A DNA stretch of 64,000 nt, from contig JAKAWV010000007.1 in NCBI GenBank assembly GCA_021827205.1, forward strand, positions 1 to 64,000, read 5' to 3'. The notes beneath the pieces were generated by a model, which saw only the letters and a list, made by a program, of their open reading frames with translations, did not search any database and was not told the DNA's origin. Source of the DNA: Pseudomonadota bacterium. GTDB lineage: Bacteria > Pseudomonadota > Gammaproteobacteria > Xanthomonadales > Rhodanobacteraceae. A program made the position numbers and the translations under genes. Below are positions 27,294 through 33,063 of the stretch, in pieces (position 1 is the first letter of the stretch; every line of letters starts with the position of its first letter).

Positions 27294-27621
27294 GGCGTTC
27301 GTCGACTGCAGCCAGAGCGCGCGCTCGAGCCACCAATACAACCCGCCGCACAGCATCAGCGCGGACACGATCAGCGCAGGCCAAGCCCAGGGCTGGTCGA
27401 GTTCGGGCATGTGGCGGAAGTTCTTGCCAAACCAGCCGGTGAGCAGGGATGGCATCGAGCACCGCATATAGCGCATAGCCTGGCCCCTGCGCCAGCAACG
27501 GCAAATTTTGCTCGGCGGTGCGCGCGACCACGAACAGGCTTTCGCCATAAAGTTCGATCTTCGGATGCTGGTGCGCGTTGCGCGCGTCCTCCGCAGTGTG
27601 CGCTGGCGTGTCGGTGCTCAT
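27294..27621 (-). pseudogene. corA: Remnant of a CorA-type magnesium transporter
   Basis: Two pieces of a CorA-like protein are left. The first, starting at 27621, reads HPKIELYGESLFVVARTAEQ, the N-terminal part of the cytoplasmic domain. After a change of frame comes the C-terminal membrane end with LLTGWFGKNFRHMPELDQPWAW, the GxN selectivity region of CorA, and then one more helix. About 200 residues between the two are missing, so an internal deletion plus a frame change removed the gene. The 3' end runs into the convergent hda gene and is not defined. Confidence 0.7.
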
Positions 27622-27645: not shown

Positions 27646-28872
27646 TCAACGTGCCGCGCGCGGCCGCCACAGGGTCCACGCCACGGCCAGATTCAGCGGC
27701 AGCGCGAACAGGATCCAGTGCAGGTTGGCCTGCACCATCCATGGTGTGAGCCTGGCCAGCAGCCCCAGCGCGCTGAGCGCGGCCAGCAGCAGCGCCAGAT
27801 GGCGTGTCCAGCGCCGCGGCGTGCGGCGCGCGCCAATGCCGCGTAGCAGCGGCCACAACAACAACAGCAGCGCCGGGTCGAACTGCAGCAGGTTTTCGTT
27901 GGCCCACGCCGCGCGGTGTGCGGTCAGCGTCCACAGCACCAGCATCAGCACACCGGCCACGCCGCCGAGCAGTGCGTAGAGGGCGGCGGCGGTGCCTACC
28001 CGGCGCGCCACAGCACCGGCGCGCGCGCGCGCGCCCCACAGCAGCAGCGCCGCCCATGCCGCGCCGATGCCCAGCAGCGGCCAGCGCAGCGCCGGTGGTG
28101 CCGGCGGCGGCGCGGAAACGTCACCGGCGTAGATCAGGCGCGAGGAAGTCACCAGCGGCCGCGTGCCGTCGCGGCCATCGGGCACGCGCACGCGTTGCAG
28201 CAGATCGGACAGGGTCACCGGCAGAAAACTGTCCTGCCATAGCGTCAGCGGCCGGTCGGCGCGCGGGCCGAGCCCGAGATCCACCAGCAGCATCAGCGGC
28301 AGATCGTGCGCCAGCATGCGCTCGGACTGGCTGCGAAACGTGCGCCCGGTGGCTGGCTGTTGCGTCTGCGCACGGATCGCTCCGCCCAGCGCGCGATCGA
28401 GCGCGTCGCGCACGCGCGTGGCGCAGTTGTCATAGAAATAGTCGTAGCGGTAACGGCGGTTCTGCGGCTGATCATTCCACAGCAGGAAGTCGCGCAGCGC
28501 CGAAGCCTGCGCCGGGGTGAAGGCGAGTTTCTCGATGCGCACCGCGCGCCCGGCGTCGATATAGCTGGTGACCTCGGGGCCGGCGTATTCGGCGTCCATG
28601 CTGTACAGCATGTGGCCGCGGATGAACTTGAGGAAAAAATCGTGCGTGTCGAAATCGAACACGCCGTAGTTGAAGCTGACCGCCTCGCCGCTGTGCGTGT
28701 CGCGCAGGATGATGGCGACGTGGCCAAAGCGCTCCCAATACACGCGCCCGGGGCCATAGGTGACCAGCTCGACCCGCAGATCGCGCCCGGGCGCGTTGCT
28801 GATGCCGGCATGCGCCAGCGGCGCCAGTGCGAGCAGCAGCACCAGCATGAGCAGACGCCGCAGCGGTTTCAT
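27646..28872 (-). CDS. DUF4105 / Lnb-type membrane protein (candidate lipoprotein N-acyltransferase)
   Basis: This 408-residue protein has a signal/anchor (residues 1-22), a periplasmic domain (about 25-250) and about five helices at the C-terminus. The periplasmic domain matches DUF4105, now named the Lnb N-terminal domain: RFGHVAIILRD with His51, FNYGVFDFDTHDFFLKFIRG, and YRYDYFYDNCATRVRDAL with Cys150. His and Cys are the expected catalytic pair of this NlpC/P60-like fold. Lnb of Bacteroides acylates the N-terminus of lipoproteins in place of Lnt. The start overlaps the corC stop (ATGA), the position that lnt holds in many gammaproteobacteria. The biochemical role here is inferred. Confidence 0.8.
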   Translation of the reverse strand: MKPLRRLLMLVLLLALAPLAHAGISNAPGRDLRVELVTYGPGRVYWERFGHVAIILRDTHSGEAVSFNYGVFDFDTHDFFLKFIRGHMLYSMDAEYAGPEVTSYIDAGRAVRIEKLAFTPAQASALRDFLLWNDQPQNRRYRYDYFYDNCATRVRDALDRALGGAIRAQTQQPATGRTFRSQSERMLAHDLPLMLLVDLGLGPRADRPLTLWQDSFLPVTLSDLLQRVRVPDGRDGTRPLVTSSRLIYAGDVSAPPPAPPALRWPLLGIGAAWAALLLWGARARAGAVARRVGTAAALYALLGGVAGVLMLVLWTLTAHRAAWANENLLQFDPALLLLLWPLLRGIGARRTPRRWTRHLALLLAALSALGLLARLTPWMVQANLHWILFALPLNLAVAWTLWRPRAAR

Positions 28873-29705
28873 GCCGGGCGCGTCACGCGCACCTGCAACA
28901 CGCGCCGGTCGTCGGCCGCGGTGATGCGGAAAGTGTGGCCATCGAGCACGGTTTCCTCGTCGTGCTCCGGCAGGTGGCCGATGGCGTCGGTGACCAGGCC
29001 ACCGACGGTATCGAAATCCTCGTCGGAGAACTGCGTGCCGAAATGCTCGTTGAAATCCTCGATCGGGGTCAGCGCATCGACCAGAAAACTGCCGTCGGGC
29101 TGCGCCTGGATCTGCGGAGCCTCCTCGGCGTCGTGCTCGTCGTCGATCTCGCCGACGATTTGCTCAAGCACGTCCTCGATGGTGATCAGTCCGGCCACGC
29201 CGCCATATTCATCGACCACCACGGCCATGTGATTGCGCGTGAGGCGGAACTCGCCCAGCAGCACGTTCAGATGCATCGACTCGGGGATCAACGCGGCCGG
29301 GCGCAGCAGGCTGGACAGCGAAAAATCGACGCTGCGATCGTGAAAGCGCAGCAGATCCTTGGCCAGCAGCACGCCGAGGATCTGGTCCTTGTCCTCGCCG
29401 TGTACCGGAAAGCGCGAGTGGCCGGACTCGGTGACCGTGGCCAGCACCTGCGCGAAGCTGGCGTCGGCCGGGATCATCACCATTTGCGCGCGTGGCACCA
29501 TGGCATCGGCCACGCGCAGGCCGCTGACTTCCAGCGCGCCCTCGACCATGGCCAAGGTGTCGCGCGTGATCAAACCGTTGCTGGCCGCGAGGCGTAGTTC
29601 TTCGAGCAGATCGGCCTGGTTGCGCGGCTCGCCCGCGAGCATCTGGCCCAGCCGGCCCCAGAAAGAGCGCCGCACCGGACCGCTGGTACTCGGACCTTCG
29701 TTCAT
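28869..29705 (-). CDS. corC: HlyC/CorC family protein with CBS domains
   Basis: This 278-residue cytoplasmic protein has two CBS repeats (about residues 75-190, with ADAMVPRAQMVMIPAD and HMAVVVDEYGGVAGLITIEDVLEQIVGEI) and a C-terminal CorC/HlyC domain ending in VLQVRVTRPA. Relatives are linked to magnesium/cobalt efflux or to membrane repair. It lies 76 bases after ybeY and overlaps the DUF4105 gene by four bases, so the set phoH-ybeY-corC-DUF4105 is probably one operon. Confidence 0.93.
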   Translation of the reverse strand: MNEGPSTSGPVRRSFWGRLGQMLAGEPRNQADLLEELRLAASNGLITRDTLAMVEGALEVSGLRVADAMVPRAQMVMIPADASFAQVLATVTESGHSRFPVHGEDKDQILGVLLAKDLLRFHDRSVDFSLSSLLRPAALIPESMHLNVLLGEFRLTRNHMAVVVDEYGGVAGLITIEDVLEQIVGEIDDEHDAEEAPQIQAQPDGSFLVDALTPIEDFNEHFGTQFSDEDFDTVGGLVTDAIGHLPEHDEETVLDGHTFRITAADDRRVLQVRVTRPA

Positions 29706-29781: not shown

Positions 29782-30327
29782 TCAGCGCGGCCGGTATGGA
29801 TCGGGGATGCCGAGCCCGGCCAGCGCGGCGGTTTCCAGTGTTTCCATGCGCGTGGCCTGGTGCGGCCGCAGGTGGTCGTGGCCGAGCAGATGCAGCACGC
29901 CGTGGATGCTCAGATGCGCGTAGTGCGCGGCCAACGGCTTGCCCTGTTCGCGCGCCTCGCGTGCCAGCACCGGGGCGCACAACACCAGATCACCGAGCAG
30001 CGGCAGATCAACGCCTGCAGGCAGTTCAGCCGGGAACGACAGCACGTTGGTGGCGTAATCGCGGCCGCGATAGCGCCGATTCAGCGCGCGGCCCTCGCGC
30101 GCGCCGACCAGGCGCAGCGACAGCTCGGCCGGAGCGCGATGCGCCGCGATCGCCAGCGCCGCCGCGACCCAGCGCCGGAACGACACCGTCGCCGGCAGGC
30201 CGCGGCGCGGCACGGCGTAGCCGAGGTGCAGCGTGAGCAGCGGGACTCGGGACTCGAGACTCGGGACTCGGGACTCGCGCCGGGGCGCACTATTGCGAAG
30301 CATCGGGCGAGAAATGCGCGGCGCCAT
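29782..30327 (-). CDS. ybeY: Endoribonuclease YbeY
   Basis: YbeY is a zinc-dependent endoribonuclease needed for 16S rRNA maturation and ribosome quality control. The zinc motif [15 protein letters not shown] and the upstream [17 protein letters not shown] are intact. The native protein would be expected to start near [14 protein letters not shown]; here about 30 residues precede it ([17 protein letters not shown] and then [12 protein letters not shown]). The latter stretch is encoded by a GGGACTCG tandem repeat at 30241-30280. The ATG at 30327, six bases past the phoH stop, is the most upstream start and was used for lack of a better one. Confidence 0.88.
30241..30280. repeat. GGGACTCG tandem repeat, copy 1 (inside the 5' end of ybeY)
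   Basis: Four to five head-to-tail copies of an 8-base unit (GGACTCGG, one copy altered to GAGACTCG) cover this stretch. Tandems of this unit are familiar from intergenic regions of xanthomonads. It is in inverted orientation to the copy at 30397-30421 and is translated as part of YbeY. Confidence 0.8.
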
Positions 30328-30333
30328 CGCGAA

Positions 30334-31407
30334 TCAGTCCACGGCGCGTGGAGCTTGCGCATCAGTATCGGTATCGGCGCGCGCGTTATGCTTTTTGCGA
30401 GTCTCGAGTCCTGAGTCCCGGACCCCGATCATCCCGGCCTCAGCGTCCTCGATCGCTTCATACGCACGCACGATGCGCGCCACCACCGGGTGCCGCACCA
30501 CATCGCGCGCGCTGAAGAAGGTGAAGCTCACGCCTTCGACATCACGCAGCACCTCGACCACGTGGCGCAGGCCGGAGCGCACGCTGCGCGGCAGGTCCAC
30601 CTGGGTGACGTCGCCGGTGATCACCGCCACCGAGCCGAAACCGATGCGCGTGAGGAACATCTTCATCTGCTCGACGGTGGTGTTCTGCGCCTCATCCAGG
30701 ATCACGCAGGAATCGTTGAGCGTGCGCCCGCGCATGTACGCCAGCGGCGCGATCTCGATGACGTTGCGCTCGATGAGTTTGGCGACCTTCTCGAAACCGA
30801 GCATTTCATACAGCGCGTCGTACAGCGGACGCAGATACGGATCGACCTTCTGGCTGAGATCGCCGGGCAGGAAGCCCAGCTTCTCGCCGGCCTCGACCGC
30901 CGGGCGCGTGAGCACGATGCGCTGCACGCGGTTTTGCGCCAGCGCCTCGACCGCACTGGCCACGGCGAGATAGGTTTTGCCGGTCCCGGCCGGGCCTATG
31001 CCGAAGTTGATGTCATGGCGCGCGATGGCGTGCAGATAGCGCGCCTGGCTGGGTCCGCGCCCTCGGATCAGACCGCGCTTGACCTTGATCGCCACGTCCT
31101 GCGCCTGCTCGGCGAGGCTGGCGGCGTGTTCATCGAGGCTGGCATCCTGCAAGCGCAGATTGAGCTGGTGCTCGTCCAGCGCCGCATCGGCGGCCTCGGC
31201 GTACAGGCGCTTGATGAAGCGCTCGGCGATCAGCGCCATCTCGGGCGCGCCGATCACGCGGAAGGCGCTGCCGCGGCTGGCGATCTCGATACCGAGGCGC
31301 AGCTCGATCATGCGCAGATGCGCGTCCAGCGGCCCGGCCAGATTGGCGAGGCGTTCGGTGTCGTCGGGTTCGAGCCGGAAATCGCGGGCAACGGTGGATG
31401 CGGACAT
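30334..31407 (-). CDS. phoH: PhoH-family ATPase (YbeZ)
   Basis: This 357-residue protein has the PhoH layout: an N-terminal RNA-binding-like part, then an ATPase with Walker A GPAGTGKTYLA, the RPAVEAGEKLGFLPGDL block, Walker B VILDEAQN and ITGDVTQVDLP. Relatives act with YbeY in rRNA processing or decay. The usual C-terminus would end shortly after RHPVVARIVRAYEAIE; here a tail of about 35 residues follows ([19 protein letters not shown] and on), whose first part is encoded by a repeat at 30397-30421. ATGs at 31407 and 31419 are both possible starts. Confidence 0.92.
   Translation of the reverse strand: MSASTVARDFRLEPDDTERLANLAGPLDAHLRMIELRLGIEIASRGSAFRVIGAPEMALIAERFIKRLYAEAADAALDEHQLNLRLQDASLDEHAASLAEQAQDVAIKVKRGLIRGRGPSQARYLHAIARHDINFGIGPAGTGKTYLAVASAVEALAQNRVQRIVLTRPAVEAGEKLGFLPGDLSQKVDPYLRPLYDALYEMLGFEKVAKLIERNVIEIAPLAYMRGRTLNDSCVILDEAQNTTVEQMKMFLTRIGFGSVAVITGDVTQVDLPRSVRSGLRHVVEVLRDVEGVSFTFFSARDVVRHPVVARIVRAYEAIEDAEAGMIGVRDSGLETRKKHNARADTDTDAQAPRAVD
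30397..30421. repeat. GGGACTCG repeat, copy 2, inverted (inside the 3' end of phoH)
   Basis: The reverse complement of this stretch matches 30241-30264 at 23 of 24 positions. It encodes part of the extra C-terminal tail of PhoH (VRDSGLETR). The two copies face each other across 115 bases that hold the phoH stop and the ybeY start. Confidence 0.75.
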
Positions 31408-31483
31408 GCGCGCAAGCATAGCGCGTGAGCTTGTGCGTTTTGGACATGCAAGGCGGGCATGCGCGCCGTGGCAACATGGCACC

Positions 31484-32259
<776 letters not shown>

Positions 32260-32263
<4 letters not shown>

Positions 32264-33063
32264 ACCCGCGTCGCGTCAGCGCCATCGTGCTGCGCCAGAT
32301 CGACCTGATGCGTTCCAGTCCGACGCGCGTGGTGCCGCTGGTGGCCTGGGTGGCGATCGACATCGTGCTGTGGGGCTACATCACCCGCTATCTGGGTTCA
32401 TTGAGCGCGCACGGACCGGATTTCACCCTGACCCTGCTGGGCGCGGTGCTGCTGTGGGATTTCTTCGGCCGCATCATGCAGGGTGTGACCACGGCGTTCT
32501 TCGAGGACGTGTGGTCGCGCAGTTTTCTCAACCTGTTCGCCAGTCCGATCAGCGTCAGCGAGTACGTGGCCGGTCTGGTGGCCACCAGCATCCTCACCAG
32601 CCTGATCAGCCTGCTGGTGATGCTGCTGCTGGCGCGTTTCGCCTTCGGCCTGTCGCTGCTGGCTTTCGGCCTGCCCGCGGCCGGGTTTCTGGCGGTGCTG
32701 TTCCTGTTCGGCATCGCGTTGGGCATTTTCGCCAGCGCCGTGGTGCTGCGTCTGGGACCGGCCTCGGAGTGGCTGGTGTGGCCGATTCCGGCGCTGTTGT
32801 CGCCGTTCGCGGCGGTATTTTATCCGTTGCATGTGCTGCCGCAGTGGATGCAGGCGGTGGCGCACGTGCTGCCGCCGGCTTATGTGTTCGAGGGGCTGCG
32901 CGCGCTGGCGGCGGGGCGCGGCGTTGAGCCGGGCACGCTGCTGCTGGCCGCGCTGCTGGCGCTATTGCAGATCGCGCTGGCGCTGGGATTCTTCGTGCGC
33001 GTGTTTCGTGGCGCGATCCGCAGCGGTCTGCTGGCGCGCTACAGCGCCGAAAGCGTGGCCTGA
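32260..33063 (+). CDS. ABC-2 type transporter permease
   Basis: This 267-residue protein has six predicted helices in ABC-2 order and the family segments FEDVWSRSFLNLFASPISVSEY and PLHVLPQWMQAVAHVLPPAYVFEGLRAL. It would form the membrane part of a two-gene exporter with the preceding ATPase, to which it is coupled by an ATGA overlap. Its stop lies four bases before the convergent miaB stop. Confidence 0.88.

Follow-up and report, generated by a model that had tools for sequence, protein, structure and literature searches.

The locus studied here raises the question of which enzyme completes lipoprotein maturation in a gammaproteobacterium whose corC gene is followed by something other than lnt. 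The Lnt step is essential in Escherichia coli, and the counterpart gene string in strain K-12 is ybeZ-ybeY-ybeX-lnt. Within the window (the whole 64,000-nucleotide stretch of DNA that was analyzed), the genes for PhoH/YbeZ (30334–31551; Pfam PhoH, E 2.9e-95), the YbeY endoribonuclease (29782–30327; Pfam YbeY, TIGR00043 above cut-off) and CorC/YbeX (28869–29705; Pfam CorC_HlyC and CBS, NCBIfam CorC 282 bits) all lie upstream of the gene of interest and, like it, on the minus strand. The true start of phoH/ybeZ is probably downstream of the listed TTG. The lnt slot is occupied by an open reading frame for a 408 aa protein, which begins with ATG and spans exactly 27646–28872 (minus strand). Pfam, NCBIfam, hhalign comparison with Bacteroidota Lnb and an AlphaFold model all point to a predicted lipoprotein N-acyltransferase, and the gene is therefore called lnb in the following.

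Directly 3′ of lnb, a gene for the magnesium transporter CorA survives as remnants (27309–27452 and 27484–27594, minus strand). The two pieces match residues 283–330 and 68–104 of an intact relative, and the middle part is gone. Intact corA is located close downstream of lnb at many Rhodanobacteraceae loci. On the plus strand, opposite to phoH, the open reading frames at 31079–33063 were read as encoding the ATPase and the permease of an ABC transporter. They stand between miaB and phoH, so that miaB and ybeZ are not neighbours as they are in E. coli.

An earlier note, made from the letters of this DNA, had described a DUF4105/Lnb protein with His51, Cys150, a multi-helix C-terminus and no nitrilase domain, encoded by a gene that overlaps corC by four bases. 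This description holds. The start of lnb lies within the corC stop (shared ATGA), and neither Pfam nor NCBIfam gave an LNT_N or CN_hydrolase match in the protein. Residues 31–175 (28348–28782, minus strand, as are all codons below) match Pfam Lnb_N (PF13387, E 1.8e-19, 70.4 bits vs. 22.2) and represent the predicted periplasmic catalytic domain. His51 (28720–28722), the predicted catalytic base in the motif ERFGH, and Cys150 (28423–28425), the predicted nucleophile in the motif YDYF..NC, are conserved without exception across 58 relatives and five Lnb-type proteins of Bacteroidota. Five transmembrane helices are predicted by the AlphaFold model and Pfam between residues 263 and 402 (27667–28086). 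The Pfam model for this region, 5TMH_Lnb, matches residues 296–401 (E 2.9e-5) with 24.6 bits, which is 0.6 bit under its gathering score of 25.2, and is matched at E ≤ 0.01 by all 58 relatives (best 3e-12). The first 22 residues (MKPLRRLLMLVLLLALAPLAHA; 28807–28872) resemble a signal peptide in sequence and contain a predicted helix at residues 2–19. Such a start, together with the C-terminal helices, is compatible with a catalytic domain that faces the periplasm.

The AlphaFold2 model, built with 58 sequences, has a pLDDT of 94.1 and a pTM of 0.89 and shows a mixed alpha/beta domain followed by the five helices. Using VIA-align 2, the top solved folds for residues 28–251 were YiiX (2if6; Z 11.7, rmsd 3.5 over 160), TseH (6v98; Z 11.1, rmsd 3.3 over 151) and a Bacillus cereus cysteine peptidase (3kw0; Z 9.3, rmsd 2.9 over 135). 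Foldseek alone gave no match at E ≤ 0.001, its first being TseH at 4.8e-3, and a sequence search for a solved Lnb structure found none. The fold of the catalytic domain, with His before Cys in the sequence, fits membership of the permuted NlpC/P60 (YiiX/LRAT/TseH-like) group. The tree described in PMC12994826 likewise has YiiX, TseH and DUF4105 as clades of permuted NlpC/P60 proteins.

The identification of Lnb dates from 2024 and was made in Bacteroides (PMC11694511 and PMC13251419 cite it), where the enzyme accounts for triacylation (Armbruster, 2024, as cited in PMC11694511). For comparison with the window protein and its relatives, the plasmid collection supplied five Lnb-type proteins of Bacteroidota. 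The hhalign alignment of the two groups covers 360 columns (probability 100, E 7.7e-57) and includes both the catalytic and the membrane domain. The residues invariant across eleven sequences include His51, Asn149, Cys150, Arg180, Asp206, His319, Asn325, and Pro333, of which H319, N325, and P333 belong to the membrane domain. Long DUF4105 paralogues, on the other hand, align with Lnb over 129 columns only (E 4.4e-9), and another DUF4105 paralogue type, found in family f2, hardly aligns at all. At three loci of that family (L043, L044, and L045) this other paralogue has hydrophobic N-terminal stretches followed by Lnb_N and no C-terminal membrane domain.

The NCBIfam Lnb model (NF051878) matches residues 11–348 of the window protein with 162 bits, below a curated cut-off of 550 that is a naming threshold and not a biological feature. 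Two of the five Bacteroidota proteins pass it (617–667 for Bacteroides/Phocaeicola), while those of Parabacteroides (398), Prevotella (378), and Hymenobacter (220) also fall below. Proteins from the order of the window's organism, scanned singly, score ≈160–173 bits, and the non-Lnb DUF4105 paralogues 0–26.

The earlier note had left it to a genome-wide search whether lnt exists elsewhere, and we found none. At E ≤ 1, LNT_N matches nothing in the window's assembly (99.25% complete, 3.04 Mb in 43 contigs), whereas the same search was positive in the E. coli control. The lnt model matches at four places in the genome, with a best score of 55 bits against a cut-off of 132.9. We considered these as a possible hidden Lnt and rejected them, as they lack LNT_N and read to us as nitrilase-family enzymes (carbamoylputrescine-amidase-like, omega-amidase-like and NAD synthetase). 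Only one Lnb_N protein is encoded. Since both Lgt (248 bits) and LspA (138 bits) are present, the steps leading to the diacyl apolipoprotein are in place.

Across 276 gammaproteobacterial genomes, LNT_N is present in 259 and absent in 17. The Lnb_N domain alone occurs in 70 of them, most of which also have Lnt, and the long representatives that we examined have another architecture, with DUF7840 or DUF7843 domains and without 5TMH_Lnb. We therefore rejected Lnb_N alone as a marker and used a profile built from 58 full-length relatives. With this profile, full-length Lnb was detected in four of the 276 genomes, all without LNT_N; they are the set's four members of the window's own order. Hits at matching coordinates link named genomes (Dyella acidisoli and Tahibacter aquaticus, for example) with family code f1 and so assign the window to Rhodanobacteraceae. 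The order is thus Xanthomonadales, which we take to be the order called Lysobacterales in NCBI. A 2.0-Mb gammaproteobacterial genome outside the order (G043) also lacks LNT_N and encodes two long DUF4105 proteins (L046 and L047); Lnt may have been lost there a second time, independently, or another protein may substitute for it.

Within Xanthomonadales/Lysobacterales, 246 of 249 genomes have the Lnb protein, including every sampled member of the large family f2. A strong LNT_N match (94–117 bits) is seen in the three remaining genomes and in no other genome of the order. In two of the three, from family f163, lnt starts within a few bases of the corC end. The third, G291, is only an apparent exception and was set aside. 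Its corC is only 33% identical to that of the window and its locus (L170) reads miaB-phoH-ybeY-corC-lnt-HTH-metK-trmB, an arrangement that looks alphaproteobacterial. The order label is thus probably wrong, and the genome was left out of the count.

The gene order follows the same pattern. Among named genomes, where the relatives are mostly Rhodanobacteraceae (Dyella, Luteibacter, Rhodanobacter, Dokdonella, Tahibacter, and Frateuria), lnb comes next after corC on the same strand at 74 of 80 loci. One of the remaining six loci starts at a contig end, and the other five, all from metagenome-assembled genomes, share a different location. In these five (L051, L070, L071, L077, and L110) lnb is apart from corC and adjoins genes read as an mmsA-like aldehyde dehydrogenase and an acyl-CoA dehydrogenase. 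Lnb directly follows CorC at 21/21 loci spanning nine family codes of the order, and corC stands upstream of lnt, on the same strand, at seven of nine other gammaproteobacterial loci.

A maximum-likelihood tree of CorC separates the order from the lnt-bearing other Gammaproteobacteria (support 97/96). Within the order, family f163, which has lnt, branches first, and the 28 Lnb-linked sequences group together (93/77), a fork that has moderate support and comes from one gene. With f163 basal, a single replacement in place suffices, and the simplest history suggested by these sequences is that Lnb took over from Lnt once, at the corC locus, after f163 had split off. The order-wide pattern would then go back to one event, so that the genomes are no independent cases and their number overstates the statistical weight. 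The same history bears on a suggestion of the earlier note that the enzyme is coupled to CorC. The adjacency is real; it is inherited from an ancestral corC-lnt operon and is no special feature of Lnb.

From the comparative sequence evidence, we consider it highly probable that the product of the window gene is the sole lipoprotein N-acyltransferase of the cell and, as an orthologue of Bacteroides Lnb, took the place of Lnt within the operon early in the order. The swap of Lnt for Lnb proposed in the earlier note thus gains support from three sides: the genome has no lnt of its own, lnt or lnb fills the slot throughout the order, and the homology with Bacteroidota Lnb is full-length. The note had also offered a second N-acylating enzyme as an alternative. 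This does not apply to the window genome, which has no Lnt, but is possible for about one fifth of its relatives, which carry an Lnt-like paralogue elsewhere. In such a case a Lnt or Lnt-like protein would be present besides Lnb, in an unassembled part of the genome or as a divergent paralogue. Divergent paralogues with weak LNT_N matches (21–64 bits) do occur sporadically in ≈54 of the 249 order genomes, and the two that were scanned exceed the TIGR00546 cut-off with 137 and 192 bits. These Lnt-like proteins (loci L131–L137 and L171–L175) measure ≈470–580 or 820–940 codons, the long form having a C-terminal extension. However, corC, ybeY, and phoH are absent at all five paralogue loci examined, ≈192 of the 249 genomes have no LNT_N match, strong or weak, and the window's own nearly complete assembly has no such paralogue. 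The Lnt-like proteins may be Lnt paralogues with another role, and we regard Lnb as a second enzyme beside Lnt as very unlikely.

The published view of a relative points in another direction. A study from 2023 found no Lnt in Xanthomonas campestris B100 and concluded that its lipoproteins are diacylated (PMC10368991). The whole order might accordingly have lost N-acylation, and the DUF4105 protein would then hydrolyse or remodel phospholipids or lysophospholipids, or do some other lipid job; relatives by fold such as Tox-Act1 indeed remove acyl groups from phospholipids, as described in PMC12994826. That study of X. campestris, however, sought Lnt only and predates the description of Lnb. A loss of the reaction also fits poorly with the whole Lnb architecture being found exactly at the former lnt position, and with a protein that is kept in nearly all genomes of the order and absent where lnt remains. 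We find this explanation unlikely, and the present sequence evidence argues against the diacyl conclusion for the order. N-acylation might also take a different route, in which an acyl chain is moved within the lipoprotein to give a lyso form and no phospholipid donor is used. Lit of Firmicutes makes such a lyso-form lipoprotein, and permuted NlpC/P60 proteins can be acyl hydrolases or transferases. Yet the closest characterized enzyme, Bacteroides Lnb, is reported to give triacylated lipoproteins, which makes an intramolecular transfer extremely improbable.

Returning to Lnb as the sole N-acyltransferase, the pathway would run as follows. Lgt and LspA would yield the diacylglyceryl-cysteine apolipoprotein as usual. 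The five transmembrane helices would hold the papain-like, permuted NlpC/P60 domain at the outer face of the inner membrane. There Cys150, activated by His51 as base, may accept an acyl chain in thioester linkage from a phospholipid, by analogy with Bacteroides Lnb and with the fold, and pass it at the periplasmic face to the lipoprotein's diacylglyceryl cysteine, whose alpha-amine is free. The triacylated product would then enter the Lol pathway. The acyl-enzyme chemistry, the donor lipid and N-acylation itself are inferred for this organism. We think it likely that a single in-place swap near the base of the order brought in an unrelated, Bacteroidota-type enzyme that makes triacylated lipoproteins by papain-type chemistry, contrary to what was inferred for X. 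campestris. Members of the order thus probably make three-chain lipoproteins.

Parts of this picture were already known, namely the activity of Lnb in Bacteroides and, in general terms, the displacement between DUF4105 proteins and Lnt. A 2026 paper describes three genomic contexts in which Lnt has repeatedly displaced DUF4105 proteins, and a DUF4105 clade that is mainly from Bacteroides with an additional Firmicutes-rich branch (PMC12994826); its text does not name corC or ybeY. Our literature search returned no usable data on lipoprotein lipids or essentiality for the order. New here are the extent of the swap at corC across the order and the timing of this swap, together with a prediction that runs against the diacyl inference for X. 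campestris. The swap idea was thus partly anticipated; the finding for the order as a whole can be tested directly and is the reverse of what had been inferred in print.

If correct, the replacement explains how lipoproteins mature without Lnt in the order. It would contradict the diacyl anchors inferred for X. campestris, which is assigned to the same order, and the LolA-LolB models in PMC10368991 rest on that diacyl assumption. It would also be a case of non-orthologous replacement, in place, of a step that E. coli cannot do without, the basal family f163 having kept the ancestral state. Inhibitors directed at Lnt would be expected to miss the order.

Compared with known systems, the window protein most resembles Bacteroides Lnb, with the same length, domain order and invariant His and Cys, and with H319, N325, and P333 kept. 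The two differ in sequence (24–27% identity), in phylum and in genomic setting: lnb of Bacteroides finegoldii is followed by a gene of the alkaline phosphatase family and by secA, unlike the window gene in its corC operon. The window protein is thus a member, outside Bacteroidota, of a recently described kind of enzyme, and the swap is unusually clean. Lnt (LNT_N and CN_hydrolase) shares with it the operon slot after corC and the predicted reaction, but has a nitrilase domain, another membrane domain and a different fold. YiiX (2if6) and TseH (6v98) share the fold of the catalytic domain, and their aligned chains comprise this domain only, without the five-helix membrane domain. The long DUF4105 proteins (≈640 aa, DUF7840/7842/7843) have the Lnb_N domain in common with the window protein but lack 5TMH_Lnb, and most genomes that encode them encode Lnt as well. 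The many DUF4105 proteins found side by side with Lnt probably have some other function, and the combination of Lnb_N with a five-helix domain separates true Lnb from them.
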